A DNA stretch of 22,216 bases, from IMG/VR virus record IMGVR_UViG_3300018017_000016, positions 1-22,216 of that record. One strand, given 5' to 3'. This DNA comes from a virus. Below, piece after piece: positions 4,635 to 22,048 of the stretch. The notes under the pieces were generated by a model that ran no database searches, was not told the DNA's origin, and saw only the letters and a list, made by a program, of their open reading frames with translations. Numbering within the stretch: the first letter of the stretch is position 1; each line of letters opens with the position of its first letter. A program made the position numbers and the translations under genes.

Positions 4635-4898
4635 TTAATCTGGTACCCAATCAAGATCAACTGTATATTTCTTCCCTATATAATTCTTATAGGTAGCTGC
4701 AATAAGAACAGGAGCAGCGACAATAATAATCGGGGCTGCCACAGTAGATATTCCTACCGTTATAAAAACTGATGCAGAAAAAAGTCCTGTAGCTGCAGCA
4801 CCAAATAATAGCGCATCAAATGCCCCATAGACGCGCTCCTCTAATCTAATGCCGCCGAAGCACTCAGAAACTTCTGTTGCTGATAGTTCTTTTATCAT
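4635..4898 (-). CDS. Double-glycine leader peptide, hydrophobic class II bacteriocin-like
   Basis: 87 residues beginning [16 protein letters not shown], a 16-residue leader matching the LSxxEVxxxxGG consensus cut by C39-peptidase ABC exporters. The predicted mature part is mostly one long Ala/Gly/Ile/Val-rich membrane-active stretch ([14 protein letters not shown], then [20 protein letters not shown]) and ends [10 protein letters not shown]. This is the look of class II bacteriocins or microcins, or of a related secreted peptide. It is the last gene of the csrA operon, overlapping csrA by ATGA, and its ribosome site CGGAGG lies inside csrA. No exporter or immunity gene is recognisable nearby. 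Confidence 0.75.
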
Positions 4899-5125
4899 AA
4901 AGCCTCCGTTTTATTAGGTTTTAATTTTAATTGTCGTTTTAAAGATGGTTGACCAGTTCTCTTCTCTTCTTGTATTATATTATATATCTCTTCGCGATGT
5001 ACTGAAATTTCATTTGGCGCCTCGATACCTAAACGTACTTGATGCCCATTTACACCTGTTACAGTAATTTTTATATAATCTCCGATAACTATTGCTTCTG
5101 AAACTCGACGCGTTAAAATTAACAT
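4895..5125 (-). CDS. csrA: CsrA-family RNA-binding translational regulator
   Basis: 76 residues starting [16 protein letters not shown] and containing [14 protein letters not shown] and ISVHREEIY, an unmistakable CsrA. The RNA-contact residues known from Escherichia coli CsrA are present (Leu4, Arg6, Arg7, Val42, Arg44, Ile47). It is longer than the usual ~61 residues, with a basic C-terminal tail [14 protein letters not shown], as in some paralogues on mobile elements. CsrA dimers bind GGA motifs, often over ribosome sites, and repress or activate translation. Here it may tune host metabolism or the phage's own GAGGA-type leaders. It has a strong AGGAGG ribosome site and is co-transcribed with secreted-type peptides on both sides. 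Confidence 0.95.
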
Positions 5126-5372: not shown

Positions 5373-5651
5373 TTATCGATGCAATGCTATTGTTAAAGCA
5401 AGAATAGAAATTGAAACGGCGATAATTGTAAATCCAATGCCAACTATCCATTTTAAATTTACTATGCCTTCTTTTAAAAGCTCTATATCTTTGCGTATTA
5501 ATGTAACGTCGCTTTTCGTGGCCACGCTATTGTCAATATAATCACGCTGAATATTAGCAAAACTCGCGTGAACATCTATTATTTCTTCTTTTTCACCTGC
5601 TTTTTTTAAGTTTTGCGTGTACTGAAATATGTCATATGTTGTTGCTGTCAT
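5373..5651 (-). CDS. DUF1640-like coiled-coil membrane protein B
   Basis: 92 residues: N-terminal helical head (YDIFQYTQNLKKAGEKEE), the family signature VATKSDVTLIRKDIELLKEG, and a C-terminal membrane helix (WIVGIGFTIIAVSISILAL). It follows the GCAAC-repeat region and is the first of four closely packed genes (this, the six-cysteine peptide, csrA and a GG peptide), which suggests one operon. Function is unknown; a membrane-tethered coiled-coil is what the sequence shows. Confidence 0.75.
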   Translation of the reverse strand: MTATTYDIFQYTQNLKKAGEKEEIIDVHASFANIQRDYIDNSVATKSDVTLIRKDIELLKEGIVNLKWIVGIGFTIIAVSISILALTIALHR

Positions 5652-5691: not shown

Positions 5692-5874
5692 GTTGCGTAG
5701 TTGCATTAGCTATACTATGCAACTGCGCAACTCTATGGCCAAAATATGCAACACCACGCGCAACCTTAATGCAACCGTTTCCCTAAAATCCTTTCTAGAA
5801 AGGGTTTTGCAATGCAACAGTCAACGCAACTTAAACGCAACCAATATAGAAAACTCAAACAACCCCAAAGCAAC
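5692..5874. repeat. GCAAC repeat array with hairpin and palindrome
   Basis: GCAAC occurs at 5719, 5727, 5748, 5760, 5771, 5814, 5826, 5837 and 5870, and inverted (GTTGC) at 5692 and 5700. Two triplets (5748/5760/5771 and 5814/5826/5837) have identical 12- then 11-base spacing and lie 66 bases apart, so the sites fall on one face of the helix. The first four pair as a 15-bp hairpin (5692-5706 with 5717-5731, one G-T pair). No credible gene lies in 5652-5854. The pattern fits a multi-site protein-binding region such as an operator, partition site or origin. Which of these cannot be told from sequence. Confidence 0.65.
5785..5808. terminator. 24-bp palindrome, possible bidirectional terminator or operator
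   Basis: AAAATCCTTT-CTAG-AAAGGGTTTT forms a ten-pair stem (one T-G pair) with a four-base loop and ends in T4 on both strands. It sits exactly between the two GCAAC triplets and downstream of the 5855-6118 gene. It could stop transcription in either direction, or be the centre of the binding region. Confidence 0.4.
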
Positions 5875-6118
5875 TTAAGATCCCAAGCAATGCAATAGCC
5901 AGCATAATCATCCAGCCCCATTTATTGGTGTTTTTTTCTGAGTTTACAATGCGCTCTTCAATTATCTTTATATCGTGTTTGGTCGCCAATAAACGATCGA
6001 ATTCATCTGTTTGGTTTTTCATTAAGCGCGTTTGTGTTTTCGCCTGATCTTTACTAAAACCACCGCTTAATAATTCTTCTGTACATTGTGACGTATCAAA
6101 CGTTATCGTGTGTATCAT
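5855..6118 (-). CDS. DUF1640-like coiled-coil membrane protein C
   Basis: 87 residues: helical head (FDTSQCTEELLSGGFSKDQAK), signature LLATKHDIKIIEERIVNSEK, and a C-terminal membrane helix (WGWMIMLAIALLGILSCFGV). It is a paralogue of the neighbouring 5373 and 6131 genes. The GGFSKDQ segment also recurs in the longer protein at 21134. It starts 12 bases after the end of the upstream paralogue. Confidence 0.75.
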   Translation of the reverse strand: MIHTITFDTSQCTEELLSGGFSKDQAKTQTRLMKNQTDEFDRLLATKHDIKIIEERIVNSEKNTNKWGWMIMLAIALLGILSCFGVV

Positions 6119-6130
6119 TTTATTTCCTAA

Positions 6131-6373
6131 TTAGTGTTTTAATATATATCCCAATATTGACAATCCAATTGTCAGCAAAACGGCAACTATGCTGCCAAGT
6201 TTAATTACTAATTTATTCGCTAGCTCTTCTAAATCTCTTTTTGTGGCTAGTTGATTAGTAATAGTTTCTGCCATAAGCTGAGCTTGTCTCTCTGCTTGTG
6301 CAGAAGGTACGCCAACCTCTTTTAAACTGTTGGCGAAGTATAATGTATCAAATGGTATCGCTGGGCAGCTCAT
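6131..6373 (-). CDS. DUF1640-like coiled-coil membrane protein D
   Basis: 80 residues from MSCPAIPFDTLYFANSLKE, with the signature LATKRDLEELANKLVIKLG and a C-terminal membrane helix (IVAVLLTIGLSILGYILKH). I chose the ATG whose codon ends at 6373 because GAGGA (in ATGAGGAAACC) lies about eight bases upstream; the frame continues further upstream but only through the tail of the regulator gene. It overlaps the regulator gene by 26 bases, so it is probably translated from the same message. Confidence 0.75.
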   Translation of the reverse strand: MSCPAIPFDTLYFANSLKEVGVPSAQAERQAQLMAETITNQLATKRDLEELANKLVIKLGSIVAVLLTIGLSILGYILKH

Positions 6374-6659
6374 TTTTGGTTTCCTCATTTTGTTTTTGGA
6401 TGCGCTTTTTAATTGTCTTTCTTTTGTTTTTTCCCTGTCTTCTTTTGGTGCTGAGAATATCATCTATAGTAATCTCTATAGAATGTTCTTTGGCTAAGTC
6501 TACAAGTTTTCTTAATACTTTATTTGTGGGCGCCTGCTGTCCCAATTCCCAAAGGCATATCTGCGATTGACTTAGGCCGAGCAGTTTTGCAAACGCCGTT
6601 TGCGACAGGTTCATTGTTAGGCGCAGCGTTGTAATTTTCGTTTTTAGTGTGTTTCTCAT
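6348..6659 (-). CDS. Xre/Cro-family helix-turn-helix regulator
   Basis: 103 residues. Residues about 17-55 (NLSQTAFAKLLGLSQSQICLWELGQ...) form an HTH of the Cro/CI/Xre or HigA type. The C-terminal third is a highly basic tail (TKRRQGKNKRKTIKKRIQ). There is no peptidase domain like that of CI. It lies at the head of the minus-strand operon, facing the replication operon across divergent promoters. By analogy with lambdoid phages I infer a repressor or Cro-like switch protein. The start codon has little ribosome site and follows its promoter by about 28 bases. Confidence 0.8.
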   Translation of the reverse strand: MRNTLKTKITTLRLTMNLSQTAFAKLLGLSQSQICLWELGQQAPTNKVLRKLVDLAKEHSIEITIDDILSTKRRQGKNKRKTIKKRIQKQNEETKNELPSDTI

Positions 6660-7912: not shown

Positions 7913-8181
7913 GTATAACAATGGATCACGAAGAATCACTAAGTTTTATAACAGCGCAAAAAATGATCGACAAGCTTTTGCTATGCGAAAGAATAGAAAA
8001 AGATATAATCGACTATAAGGCTGAACCATACAATAAACAGCAGCTTTCTAAAAAACTGTTTCTATCAACAAAGCAACTTGGTGAGTTTGGCGATGAGGAT
8101 TTCTATAAAAGATATTCAAGAAAGATTTCTTTGCCTTTAATTAAATTGTTTTGTGCTACTAAATTTTACGAGGACTATTAA
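7909..8181 (+). CDS. Small helical protein between ATPase and SSB-like genes
   Basis: 90 residues (MSITMDHEESLSF...), rich in Lys, Leu and Asp/Glu and predicted mostly helical. It has no motif I recognise. It is locked between the ATPase (ATGA overlap) and the SSB-like gene (TAATG overlap), so its product probably serves the same recombination/replication step. A second in-frame ATG at 7921 is possible. Confidence 0.65.
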   Translation: MSITMDHEESLSFITAQKMIDKLLLCERIEKDIIDYKAEPYNKQQLSKKLFLSTKQLGEFGDEDFYKRYSRKISLPLIKLFCATKFYEDY

Positions 8182-8660
8182 TGAACGCAATACTTAAGCC
8201 TGGGAAATATACTTTCCAGATTTGCAACTGTGATGCTGCTTATATTGGAAAAACATCGGGAAAAGAATCTATTAGAATTATATGTAAAATAAACTCAGGA
8301 GGCGAAGAGACTAAAATATTTGAGTACTTCTCGAAGTCTATTGATCCAAAAACCGGGAAGCCCTGGGCGTTTATTACAGAACGGCTAAATGATTTAGTTA
8401 CTTCTATTGGCAAACCATATCTTATAGGAACAGAAATAAAAGCCGATGATTTATTAGATGGCGTAGGTTATGCAATTATCCATACTGAGAAGTCAGAGCA
8501 GTATGGAGACAAAAGCCGAATAGCAAAATTCTTGCCGCCTACGGATACACAACCGCTTGCTGAGGTTACGGTTGAGGCTCCGGTTGCTCCAGTACAGACA
8601 AGATTACCATTAGAAGAAGATGGGATAAATAAGGATATAGACATGGATTTGCCTTTTTAA
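8181..8660 (+). CDS. SSB-like single-strand DNA-binding protein (DUF669-like)
   Basis: 159 residues. The N-terminal ~110 residues are beta-rich (LKPGKYTFQICNCDAAYIGK, RIICKI, KIFEYFS, GVGYAIIHTE), as in DUF669-type phage proteins, a group of OB-like single-strand binders. The C-terminus is a disordered Pro/Glu/Val linker ending DIDMDLPF. That acidic tip with a terminal Phe is like the DDDIPF tail through which SSB recruits partner proteins. It has GAGGA upstream and overlaps the previous stop (TAATG). Confidence 0.7.
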   Translation: MNAILKPGKYTFQICNCDAAYIGKTSGKESIRIICKINSGGEETKIFEYFSKSIDPKTGKPWAFITERLNDLVTSIGKPYLIGTEIKADDLLDGVGYAIIHTEKSEQYGDKSRIAKFLPPTDTQPLAEVTVEAPVAPVQTRLPLEEDGINKDIDMDLPF

Positions 8661-8726: not shown

Positions 8727-8951
8727 ATGACACTATATACTCCAACATCTAATAAGCTTTATAAGTTCTTCTTGGACACAAACCGAGAAGACGATATACC
8801 GCTTAAGTGGATTCATCAGAACAAACCTTTTATAATGAACAATTACCCAAAGGCCTTTGAAAAACTATTTCCTGATGAAGACGAAGAACTTGAAAGCGAA
8901 GCAGCAGACGAACATAATTATTTAAATTCAACAATAGGAAGAGGAAAATAA
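8727..8951 (+). CDS. Small acidic protein
   Basis: 74 residues (MTLYTPTSNKLYKFFLDTN...) with a strongly acidic C-terminal part (FPDEDEELESEAADEH). No family is recognised. I use the second ATG (8727), since GAGGA inside ATGAGGAAAG (8712-8721) is its ribosome site. Acidic early phage proteins sometimes mimic DNA, but nothing here proves that. Confidence 0.6.
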   Translation: MTLYTPTSNKLYKFFLDTNREDDIPLKWIHQNKPFIMNNYPKAFEKLFPDEDEELESEAADEHNYLNSTIGRGK

Positions 8952-9926: not shown

Positions 9927-9962
9927 ATGCAAGAAACAAAAATTGTTACTGCGGAGTTATAA
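9927..9962 (+). CDS. Possible 11-residue leader peptide
   Basis: ATG at 9927 follows a good ribosome site (AAGGAGA, 9913-9919) and encodes MQETKIVTAEL before TAA. The stop lies five bases before the nuclease start, and the nuclease ribosome site (GGAG, 9953-9956) is inside the leader. Translation of the leader would therefore control access to the nuclease start. No pause codons are obvious. Confidence 0.4.
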   Translation: MQETKIVTAEL

Positions 9963-9966
9963 TAAC

Positions 9967-10515
9967 ATGTTAAGAAAAATAAATCTATTATTGTTTGTTC
10001 TATTCTTTTTCTGCTCTTCCTTCGCTAGTGCCGCTAAATTTTCGTCTGATGCAGAATATCAACTGATTTTCACTCCTGGAGAAGATGATTGTGCAAAACA
10101 GATTGTCCAAGTAATTAATAACGCTAAACACCAGGTTCTTGTTCAAGCTTATAGTTTTACTGATTGGGATATTGCACATGCTTTATTACAAGCAAAAAGA
10201 CGAGGAGTGCAAGTGAGCGTTCTTTTAGATAGGAGCCAAAAAGATAAGGAAATTATGCGGTTTTTATTGTTTTATAAAATTGATTGCAGTATTGATTCTG
10301 CTAACTCTATCTCAATAGCGCACAATAAAATTATAATTGTTGATCGCAAAATAGTTGTTGGAGGCAGTTATAATTATAGTAAAAACGCAGCTCATAGAAA
10401 TGCAGAAAATATTACGATAATAAAAGATCGTGCTTTTGCAGCGGCTTTTTATGCTAATTGGAAAGCAAGAAAAGAAATGAATAAAACAAGAAAATCACAG
10501 AACTGCGCATTATAA
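9967..10515 (+). CDS. Secreted phospholipase-D-family nuclease (Nuc/EndA type)
   Basis: 182 residues. The Sec signal peptide is MLRKINLLLFVLFFFC...ASA, cut near AAKF. The domain has a single HKD motif: HNKIIIVDRK followed by GGSYNYSKNA and NAEN, as in the dimeric Nuc family of plasmid-encoded periplasmic endonucleases. The upstream YQLIFTPGEDD and AYSFTDWDIAHAL blocks also fit. Two chains would form one active site degrading DNA in the periplasm. In a phage this could destroy incoming DNA of competitors or salvage nucleotides. A TTG start upstream (9943) is open, but ATG 9967 puts the signal peptide first. Confidence 0.85.
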   Translation: MLRKINLLLFVLFFFCSSFASAAKFSSDAEYQLIFTPGEDDCAKQIVQVINNAKHQVLVQAYSFTDWDIAHALLQAKRRGVQVSVLLDRSQKDKEIMRFLLFYKIDCSIDSANSISIAHNKIIIVDRKIVVGGSYNYSKNAAHRNAENITIIKDRAFAAAFYANWKARKEMNKTRKSQNCAL

Positions 10516-10572
10516 TCTTATCCTATAATTTGTAAAATTTAATATTTCCTTAAGGTTGGCTATTATTTGTTG

Positions 10573-10647
10573 ACAGCAGGCGTAGAATGCGGGTTTTTAA
10601 GGGAGCACATGAGCGAATTTTTGCTTGCTTTTTACGCCTGTTGCTGT
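10573..10647 (+). ncRNA. First stem-loop of the replication-gene leader
   Basis: CAGGCGTAGAA (10577-10587) pairs with the stretch at 10630-10640 (11 pairs, one G-U). An outer ACAG/CTGT closes beyond a 3-base bulge. A third small stem (TGAGC/GCTCA, 10671-10686) follows. No open reading frame with a credible start lies in 10516-10831, so this 316-base gap is best read as structured leader RNA. Confidence 0.5.
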
Positions 10648-10708
10648 ATAAAAGGAAGTGAATTCATTCGTGAGCGTGAAAGCTCAAAACATTAACTGTT
10701 TTACATTG

Positions 10709-10812
10709 CGAACAATTTGCCATGTCGATCGACTAGCTACCGATTCGTCCAGGCACCAAGCCATACAGTTGCGGTAACTTTCACCTAGTTGGTTGACATG
10801 GCAAATTGTTCG
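10709..10812 (+). ncRNA. Large structured element: 28-bp uninterrupted stem before the replication gene
   Basis: Bases 10709-10726 are the exact reverse complement of 10795-10812 (18 pairs). The helix continues inward with ten more pairs (10727-10736 with 10785-10794), three of them G-U on the plus strand. Inside are TACCG/CGGTA (10738-10742 with 10772-10776) and GGC/GCC stems. G-U pairs on the plus strand only would be A-C mismatches on the other strand, which points to RNA on this strand rather than a DNA cruciform. The stem ends 8 bases before the AAGGA ribosome site of the replication gene. A regulatory leader, antisense target or free small RNA are all possible. Confidence 0.65.
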
Positions 10813-10831
10813 AGATGTATAAGGACTCAAG

Positions 10832-11878
10832 ATGAACAATACACCTGGAAATTTTATTATATCAAATACTGATGAGATGAAATCTATTAGATGTGCTCAA
10901 GCCCAAATAGTTTTCTATTGGCTTTGTAAATTCAGAAATCACACAACAGGATTATGTTTTCCTACTTATGATAAGCTTTCTGAATGTTGTTGTTTAAGTG
11001 AAAGCTCAATAAGAAGAGCGATTAAATATTTGATTTCTATAAAGAAAATAAAAATAAAAGAAAACTCCGGTCGGTCTAATCATTATATAATTTTAAATAA
11101 AGGATACCCCTGTCAGATAGAACAGGGTATTGGAATTAATCTAATGGAACGGACAGAAACTAACGCGTTAATGTCCAATGCCATTGTGGACTTAGAGGGA
11201 ACCCCTGTCACACAGACACCCCTGTCTAATAGACACCCCTGTCTAATAGACACCCCTGTCACACAGACACCCACCCCTGTCACAGGGAACACTCTGAGTG
11301 TTCCCTGTGAACAGCTAAATAGATTAATTAAAAAGAACATTAATAAAAAAGACAACAACAACCCCCTTACCCCCTTGTCAGGGGGAGATGCCGAGGTTCC
11401 AAAAACGGAATCGAAAAAAAGTAGTGGTAGTTCTTTTTTAAATTCTCAAAAGCTAGAAGCAAAAAAATCTCGGCTTGATAAAATAGCAGAGTGGAAAAAG
11501 TTTGTTGATATTGAGCCTTTAAAAAAATATGGATTCGATCCCATAAATTTATTTCAAATAATTGACAAAACAAAATTAACCAAGGAGGAAGTTAACGAAT
11601 CAATAAAAAATTGTGCTGAAACTTTAAACCAACCGGGAAAACTTGAAAGCATCACCTCAACACCATTGCTTTATTTTTTGGGACACACATTTAAAAATGA
11701 AGTGTTTTCCCCAATTGGAAAGACCGGCAAGGAAATCGTTGCCGAAGAGAAAGCAAAACAAAAAGAAAAGTGGGAGTTGCAAAAAAAAGAAATTGACGAA
11801 GTCAGTTTGAAAAATGCGAACAAAAGATTTGAAGATTTTAAGCAAGATAAATTAATTAACCAAGCGAGGGCAATATGA
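10832..11878 (+). CDS. Replication initiator-like protein, HTH domain, origin inside gene
   Basis: 348 residues. Residues about 10-95 form a winged helix-turn-helix (FYWLCKFRN...CFPTYDKLSECCCLSESSIRRAIKYLISIKKI...) of the type in phage lambda-O-like and plasmid replication proteins. Residues about 115-180 are a Pro/Thr-rich linker encoded by 17-bp DNA repeats (11201-11281). The C-terminal half is charged and helical (EAKKSRLDKIAEWKKF...) with a terminal coiled-coil that may recruit helicase loader or helicase. An initiator whose own gene carries iterons followed by AT-rich DNA is the lambda O/ori plan. AAGGA at 10821 sets the start. Confidence 0.75.
   Translation: MNNTPGNFIISNTDEMKSIRCAQAQIVFYWLCKFRNHTTGLCFPTYDKLSECCCLSESSIRRAIKYLISIKKIKIKENSGRSNHYIILNKGYPCQIEQGIGINLMERTETNALMSNAIVDLEGTPVTQTPLSNRHPCLIDTPVTQTPTPVTGNTLSVPCEQLNRLIKKNINKKDNNNPLTPLSGGDAEVPKTESKKSSGSSFLNSQKLEAKKSRLDKIAEWKKFVDIEPLKKYGFDPINLFQIIDKTKLTKEEVNESIKNCAETLNQPGKLESITSTPLLYFLGHTFKNEVFSPIGKTGKEIVAEEKAKQKEKWELQKKEIDEVSLKNANKRFEDFKQDKLINQARAI
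11201..11281 (+). repeat. 17-bp iterons, candidate replication origin
   Basis: ACCCCTGTC occurs at 11201, 11218, 11235, 11252 and 11273, spaced 17, 17, 17 and 21 bases, with an outlying copy at 11106. The repeats between 11211 and 11260 extend to AGACACCCCTGTC, itself a near-dyad. They lie within the initiator-like gene in its linker. Iterons in this place are the known arrangement of lambdoid origins; use as an origin here is inference. Confidence 0.7.
11281..11309. repeat. Perfect 13-bp inverted repeat after the iterons
   Basis: CACAGGGAACACT and AGTGTTCCCTGTG flank CTG. It immediately follows the last iteron and precedes an AT-rich stretch (11310-11360) suitable for strand opening. A second small dyad (CCCCCT-TGTC-AGGGGG, 11370-11385) lies beyond it. 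Confidence 0.6.
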
Positions 11879-14050: not shown

Positions 14051-14078
14051 TCCTCATTATTAAGTTGTTGTTGTTTGT
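14051..14078 (-). repeat. 28-bp leader repeat, copy 1
   Basis: This stretch is identical to 14542-14569. On the minus strand it reads from an ACAACAACAAC tract to AATGAGGA and forms the 5' leader and ribosome site of the 13831 coiled-coil gene. The 14085-14160 gap beside it contains only a start-less 27-codon frame. Confidence 0.7.
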
Positions 14079-14161
14079 GAAATGTTAATACCAGTTTAAT
14101 TCTTTATCCTCATCAGCATGAAGCCAATATGCGTCGCCATATTTTTCTTTCAATTTCTCTT

Positions 14162-14533
14162 TTATTTTAGTGTATCATGCACGCCGTAGCAATACGCAGA
14201 TATTTGTAATAGTTGTGCTCTCGCTTCTATCGGGTTAGTAATTGCTACATCTCTTAACCAAGAGAAATACGAAGGCCGGTAAGTCAAATATACCAAGACC
14301 ATTGCACAGTTACCTAATGAATTAAGCATCGGTATTAAGGGATGATCTACGTTTAATGTTCCGATTGTTTTGCTCAGGTCTTCAGCAAACGTTTTGCTTT
14401 CTAAAGATTCAAGGTTTATTATTTTTGCAATAAGAGCGTCGGCATAAACATTGTGATATGTTCTGTTCGCAAACACATTTGTCTGTATTAATATTAAAGA
14501 AAGTAACGCGCCAATTAATATTTTTGTTTTCAT
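14162..14533 (-). CDS. Exported protein with signal peptide
   Basis: 123 residues. The signal peptide MKTKILIGALLSLILIQTNV-FA is followed by a helical mature domain with three cysteine or tyrosine-rich patches (NCAMVLVYLTYRPSYFSW, AYCYGVHDTLK) and two cysteines that could pair. I chose the second ATG, since GAGGA in ATGAGGAAAC is its ribosome site and lies within the longer frame. No family is recognised. A periplasmic protein in this position might be an immunity or superinfection-exclusion factor; that is inference. Confidence 0.65.
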   Translation of the reverse strand: MKTKILIGALLSLILIQTNVFANRTYHNVYADALIAKIINLESLESKTFAEDLSKTIGTLNVDHPLIPMLNSLGNCAMVLVYLTYRPSYFSWLRDVAITNPIEARAQLLQISAYCYGVHDTLK

Positions 14534-14541
14534 TTTTTGTT

Positions 14542-14569
14542 TCCTCATTATTAAGTTGTTGTTGTTTGT
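14542..14569 (-). repeat. 28-bp leader repeat, copy 2
   Basis: Second exact copy of the leader repeat at 14051-14078, here just upstream of the exported-protein gene. Both copies place AATGAGGA at the same distance from the start codon region. Confidence 0.7.
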
Positions 14570-21552: not shown

Positions 21553-21834
21553 TTATATCCTGTTTTTTAAGTCTCGATAAAAATTTTCGTGTGTACCAAG
21601 AAACAGTAGCAACCTTTCTTTTGGAAACCATTTGTAAGCTAGTAGCATTTTCAAATGGTGCATTTGGAATTTGTATACATAAATTCCAGCTAAGTTACCT
21701 TTTTTTATTTGCCCTATTTTTGGATTATTAATAACATCATTGATGGCTATATCAACTATTTCTTTTTGATTATCATGCAGCCGTCTATATGATTTATTAA
21801 AGGCTGGTTCTTGAGTGATTGTTATGTTTTTCAT
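21553..21834 (-). CDS. RelE/ParE-family toxin
   Basis: 93 residues from MKNITITQEPAFNKSYRRLH. The order is N-terminal strand and helix (AFNKSYRRLHDNQKEIVDIA), IGQIKKGNLAGIYVYKFQ, LLAYKW and the ending LLLFLGTHENFYRDLKNR. This is the core of RelE/ParE toxins; the H-E-N-F-Y-R-D-L-K ending is common in the family. Such toxins cleave mRNA at the ribosome or poison gyrase; which one cannot be told. A TTG start six codons upstream is possible. It overlaps the antitoxin gene by 38 bases. Confidence 0.8.
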   Translation of the reverse strand: MKNITITQEPAFNKSYRRLHDNQKEIVDIAINDVINNPKIGQIKKGNLAGIYVYKFQMHHLKMLLAYKWFPKERLLLFLGTHENFYRDLKNRI

Positions 21835-22048
21835 GTTTTTGATCGAATTCAAAAGGAATTGGAGTTTCTGCTAATGCTTCAAAAATGCCTTCTATAAAAT
21901 CACCAGGCAAGTCTGGATTGTCAATTGCTGTTCTTCCGATCTTTGCCCAGTATAAAATCTGATTAGGAATAGAGCGAAATTGGGATTCTGCCACTGGTTT
22001 TGTTTCATTGTAAAAATCTTTATCTATTCTTATTGCTATGCTGCTCAT
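21797..22048 (-). CDS. ParD-like ribbon-helix-helix antitoxin
   Basis: 83 residues. SIAIRIDKDFYNETKPVAES followed by RSIPNQILYWAKIGRTAIDN and PDLPGDFI matches the ParD-like antitoxin family that partners RelE/ParE toxins: a ribbon (IAIRID) plus two helices for DNA binding. The C-terminal PIPFEFDQKHEK would bind the toxin. It is first in the operon, as is usual for autoregulated modules. The ribosome site is poor (TAGGCAAC). Confidence 0.8.
   Translation of the reverse strand: MSSIAIRIDKDFYNETKPVAESQFRSIPNQILYWAKIGRTAIDNPDLPGDFIEGIFEALAETPIPFEFDQKHEKHNNHSRTSL

Follow-up and report, generated by a model that had tools for sequence, protein, structure and literature searches.

What does a hairpin of 28 uninterrupted pairs do directly in front of the replication gene of a phage, and does it act there as RNA or as DNA? 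The question is raised by a 22,216-bp record from a viral collection, here called the window (the whole stretch of DNA that was analysed), which encodes, besides a replication initiator, a Sak4-like annealing protein, terminase subunits, a P22-type portal, a GH108 lysin, CsrA and a PLD-family protein. The hairpin stands in the 316-nt gap that forms the leader between the PLD-family gene (9943-10515) and the initiator gene. The features discussed below are the following (positions in the window, strand, description).

10539..10566, +, weak promoter-like site TTAATA-16-TATTAT (9/12 matches; such sites are no commoner than chance)
about 10574..10643, +, second leader hairpin, 14 + 6 pairs (-31.9 kcal/mol, z -5.1)
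10609..10695, +, possible 28-codon leader ORF with ATG and AAGGGAG upstream (could be chance)
10658..10777, +, candidate GTG ORF of 39 codons, crossing the 5' arm and ending in the loop (could be chance)
10671..10686, +, small hairpin TGAGC-GTGAAA-GCTCA, paired in the whole-leader fold
10701..10819, +, outer stem extension, 5-6 pairs past a short internal mismatch, up to the ribosome site
10709..10812, +, main hairpin, 28-pair stem and 48-nt loop (z -10.9)
10738..10776, +, inner helix TACCG/CGGTA and a small GGC/GCC, within the 48-nt loop
10821..10825, +, Shine-Dalgarno-like AAGGA of the initiator gene
10832..11878, +, replication initiator gene, O-like, HTH_36 (348 aa; PF13730, phrog_345)
11201..11285, +, tandem 17-bp iterons ACCCCTGTC.... 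inside the initiator gene, with a further copy near 11106-11121
11280..11310, no strand assigned, perfect 15-bp palindrome adjoining the iterons, inside the initiator gene

An exceptionally long hairpin

The main hairpin is an exceptionally long, real RNA-type hairpin directly before the replication-initiator gene, 19 nt from the initiator ATG. Its arms, CGAACAATTTGCCATGTCGATCGACTAG (10709-10736) and CTAGTTGGTTGACATGGCAAATTGTTCG (10785-10812), form 28 unbroken pairs on the + strand (25 Watson-Crick and three G-U), with 18 Watson-Crick pairs followed by ten that include the three G-U. The original prediction had described this very stem, and its coordinates and pairing turned out to be exact on refolding; the further fold that it proposed within the loop was recovered as the TACCG/CGGTA helix, and the two extra stem-loops that it placed upstream (our second and small hairpins) are both present.

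The minimum free energy of the main hairpin is -52.0 kcal/mol, against -21.5 +/- 2.8 in dinucleotide shuffles. In 100 simulated sequences with the dinucleotide composition of the window, the longest stem to arise by chance had 20 pairs, and usually 13-16, and the main hairpin is by far the best inverted repeat in the window. When both strands were scanned for composition-corrected energy (2944 scan windows of 150 nt; those of 130 nt miss the stem of the relative L044 described below, which nearly fills them), the lowest value was that of the initiator leader. Folding of a whole leader of 325 nt retains the main hairpin and extends it outwards by further pairs (about 10701-10706 with 10814-10819) that reach the border of the Shine-Dalgarno, which lies outside the main stem and is about half accessible in this fold.

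The hairpin had been said to match no known riboswitch or tRNA, in agreement with our Rfam search, which gave no match at gathering or relaxed thresholds. A search for similar DNA produced one chance 28-nt match in phages and none in plasmids.

The initiator gene and its probable origin

The gene that follows the hairpin had been called initiator-like from its sequence, an assignment borne out by its matches to PF13730 and phrog_345. Iterons and a palindrome within the initiator gene are the layout of a lambda O-type origin, and those at 11201-11310 are probably such an origin. No iterons were found in the leader, all of them being located at 11106-11285 in the initiator gene. Since both iterons and palindrome lie inside the gene, the hairpin is not the binding (iteron) site of the initiator. 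Shorter in-gene repeats also occur in the initiators of three relatives (L030, L044 and L047). The lambda O replicon resembles that of the window in having an HTH initiator whose gene contains 17-bp iterons and a palindrome, but differs from it in that a long leader hairpin is, to our knowledge, not part of lambda O.

Relatives and a second long stem

The phage is present as near-identical contigs in several metagenomes, which we take from their IMG numbers to be probably peat. The 701 nt around the hairpin are identical in every near-identical contig that spans it, so that no covariation can be counted within the species. Elsewhere in the genome, about 460 bp with a small gene (14078-14542) are missing from two near-identical contigs (IMGVR 3300025506_000007 and 3300018022_000159).

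Distant relatives were reached via the terminase, and four of them have a homologous initiator (L030, L037, L044 and L047). One, L044, is a 40.6-kb contig from a bin that bears the label Saccharibacteria, perhaps through faulty binning, with a terminase 70% identical and an initiator 34% identical to those of the window. Its initiator leader also contains 28 unbroken pairs on the sense strand (24 Watson-Crick and four G-U; z -5.8), closing a multibranched loop. This stem is the longest in 40 kb of the contig, where the next one has 16 pairs, and stems in simulated sequences reach 19 at most; by composition-corrected energy, this hairpin ranks second in L044, not first. In 409 kb of related phage DNA, the only stems of more than 22 pairs are the leader stems of the window and of L044. 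The arms of the two have no clear common sequence and neither have their loops, which measure 48 nt in the window and 67 nt in L044, and the distance to the gene is 19 nt in one case and about 180 nt in the other; because sequence, loop and distance all differ, common descent of the two stems is not established. Aligned in register they keep their pairs, as any two hairpins so aligned would (n=2).

A long stem is absent from the initiator leaders of L030, L037 and L047, that is, from three of the five leaders of the group, and the hairpin is therefore not essential to this replicon type. We found no comparable leader hairpins before more distant HTH_36 initiators, and no initiator homologues beyond L044 either in other terminase relatives or among the 93 genomes of the family to which the L044 bin belongs; a small gene common to the window (8181-8660) and L044, used as bait, returned the same phage only. 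Judging from these sequences, such a leader hairpin recurs in one distant relative and is neither universal nor demonstrably one family. As a separate observation, L047 has a strong hairpin (2159-2288, +, z about -9) directly before its small terminase gene.

Several candidate relatives were rejected. The pattern of the L044 arms had four matches in viral contigs, all of them unrelated and AT-rich. Long hairpins of 21-22 pairs in Sak4-related contigs (L018, L020, L023 and L025) stand in other gene contexts, and no HTH_36 gene was found in L018 and L020, the two of them that were searched for one. The exact arm pattern of the main hairpin was found in viral contigs in the same phage and in the leaders of transposase genes (L039-L041) which, from their protein sequence, we take to be IS1380-like. 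These leaders resemble that of the window in 11 of the 28 bases of each arm and in the placing of a hairpin where a gene begins, but loop, spacing and gene are others. We regard the match as most likely a coincidence, because loop and spacing differ and because the transposase start codon lies inside that stem; the estimated chance expectation for such an 11-bp arm match in the collection is about 0.1. The start-codon hairpins of the transposase genes themselves (L039 422-496, L040 366-440, L041 1998-2072) look as if they block translation in read-through transcripts.

RNA or DNA?

The three G-U pairs of the main stem are G-U only on the + strand, and on the - strand the unbroken stem is reduced to 18 pairs. 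More generally, the differences between the arms in the window (three) and in L044 (four) are without exception transitions that appear as G-U on the sense strand of the initiator, as do two transitions in the second leader hairpin, and all of them would read A-C on the opposite strand. The bias speaks for a structure in sense-strand RNA, because drift of a DNA element would send about half of the transitions the other way, with the qualification that the stem finder tolerates G-U, so that the bias is partly ascertained. The idea of a structured leader element acting in the RNA sense is sustained by the initiator gene that follows, the lack of an Rfam match, the sense-only G-U pairs and the L044 stem. 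The roles first suggested for it (copy-number control, protein binding, an excised small RNA) are conjectural, and three leaders out of five have no such stem.

What could the hairpin do?

In our view the hairpin probably serves to control or process the initiator mRNA. More specifically, and tentatively, the explanation that we favour is a cis-acting RNA in the 5' leader of this mRNA, which probably serves its processing, of the RNase III type, or its stability. RNase III targets are known among the RNAs of lambda, T7 and T3 (PMC5371410, PMC8708148), and a passage of PMC5725501 cites a modulation of the lambda N leader by RNase III that is coupled to translation. If the minimum target is taken as about 22 nt of double-stranded RNA (PMC5371410), the 28 unbroken pairs on the sense strand of the gene exceed it, and they are placed before a phage gene as part of its 5' leader, provided that the leader is transcribed as we suppose. 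The phage hairpins processed by RNase III (lambda N leader, T7/T3 early sites) are similar in having a long leader stem on the sense strand, shortly before the ribosome site of a gene that is early or of replication type, whereas the stem of the window is unusually long and unbroken, is unrelated in sequence and precedes an initiator. As to the lambda N leader, inspection by eye showed a boxA-like TGCTTTTTA at about 10627 and the small hairpin at 10671-10686, at an unusual spacing, but no convincing nut site (boxA/boxB), and no N-like gene or protein was identified.

In the mechanism that we infer, from transcription of the hairpin through its cleavage by RNase III to the direction of the effect, the host enzyme would cut the stem and release a piece of about 70-100 nt. 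The mRNA would be left with a short, trimmed 5' end just upstream of the ribosome site of the initiator, and this end would determine how stable the initiator mRNA is or how well it is translated, hence the timing or dose of replication. Such processing or stabilisation is likelier than direct occlusion, because the Shine-Dalgarno is not buried in the main stem. The RNase III reading gains support from a stem that is far beyond chance, is 19 nt from the ATG and is matched in L044, and it is weakened by the absence of promoters above chance (sites are no more frequent than in shuffles, the best with 9/12 matches), by the three of five leaders without the stem and by the partly ascertained G-U bias. 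Transcription from the promoter-like site at 10539..10566 would begin close to the second hairpin.

The hairpin could also belong to a leader RNA that controls the translation of the initiator for copy number or timing, as in plasmids R1 or pMV158, with the stem as target of an antisense RNA or opened by a ribosome on a leader ORF. The leaders of R1 (CopA/CopT) and pMV158 (RNAII) likewise have hairpins before an initiator gene; here there are three of them, in front of an initiator of the iteron type, the 28-codon candidate ORF ends 14 nt before the stem while the other crosses the 5' arm, and a weak promoter-like site exists on the opposite strand (10865-10836). Two relatives encode ParA-like partition genes (L030 5138-6073, L044 5482-6429; none was seen in the window), which suggests phage-plasmids, a way of life that the group may share. 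Against this, the promoter-like sites are at shuffle frequency and no terminator-like site was found on the antisense path through the leader, so that an antisense transcript is unsupported here; the short ORFs have the length expected by chance, and the near-identical contigs are invariant. The origin of the window is of the in-gene iteron type, contrary to these plasmids, and iteron replicons usually control their copy number via the iterons. We therefore find this explanation rather doubtful. That the hairpin works in DNA, for instance as a site for a primosome or for single-strand initiation, by forming a cruciform or as a dyad that a repressor binds, we consider unlikely: the arms do make a strong dyad in DNA as well (DNA fold z -8.4), next to a replicon, with 18 bp of each perfectly palindromic, but in two unrelated stems every difference between the arms gives G-U on the sense strand, about 400 bp separate the hairpin from the origin-like iterons and palindrome within the initiator gene, and repressor dyads do not usually have a spacer of 48 nt.

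The discrete and stable 104-nt fold has the size of a small RNA and contains a duplex of RNase III size, and one could imagine that it is excised as a free-standing RNA acting in trans on host RNA or protein. This seems quite improbable to us, as neither a promoter nor a terminator of its own was detected, Rfam has no match, searches of phages, plasmids and other viral contigs gave no further copy, and the loop of L044 is different. Finally, the inverted-repeat architecture and the 11-bp arm matches to the IS1380-like leaders might evoke an insertion (a small palindromic MITE or IS fragment) without function for the phage. Yet no target-site duplication is seen in the flanks of the hairpin, no second copy exists in the window or in unrelated viral contigs, the IS match has the limits and the chance expectation given above, and L044 has an unrelated stem at the same place, all of which makes an insertion very improbable.

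Other observations in these genomes

The phage encodes CsrA (4895-5125, - strand), and so do the relatives L030 (179-403) and L044 (about 954-1118). Searches with its terminase, CsrA and portal pointed to no particular host. The loop of the L044 leader hairpin (within 8772-8894, - strand) contains GTGGAAAGGATTCCAC, a small hairpin with AGGA near its loop, an arrangement that resembles CsrA sites; GGA is absent from the main loop of the window. Four small proteins scattered through the phage genome (4635-4898, 13127-13432, 17765-18004 and 20671-20913, - strand) have double-glycine leader-like starts, e.g. LNTQEAKLITGG, and resemble secreted peptide precursors; none of the three that were searched had a Pfam match. 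A repeated family of small proteins on the - strand (2683-2970, 5373-5651, 5855-6118 and 6131-6463) has a motif like LATK(H/R)D and a C-terminal hydrophobic stretch. The same strand encodes a Phd/YefM-type antitoxin without obvious partner (2265-2510) and a ParE-like toxin adjoining a probable antitoxin (21553-22048).

Conclusion

The leader hairpin is real, strong and unclassified, and its placement recurs in one distant relative. If the leader sets the dose of the initiator via RNA processing, as in the cis-acting explanation that we favour, an RNA layer would be added to lambda-type, iteron-based replication control. One may speculate further, with little confidence, that the two stems belong to a new class of leaders in uncultured phages or phage-plasmids, in which a stem of about 28 pairs is selected as structure while its sequence turns over completely, and which would serve as a processing switch coupling initiator dose to host RNase III or to another double-stranded-RNA-binding factor. 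If this were true, it would be a case of a leader in which the structure and not the sequence is maintained, a kind that homology searches and Rfam miss.
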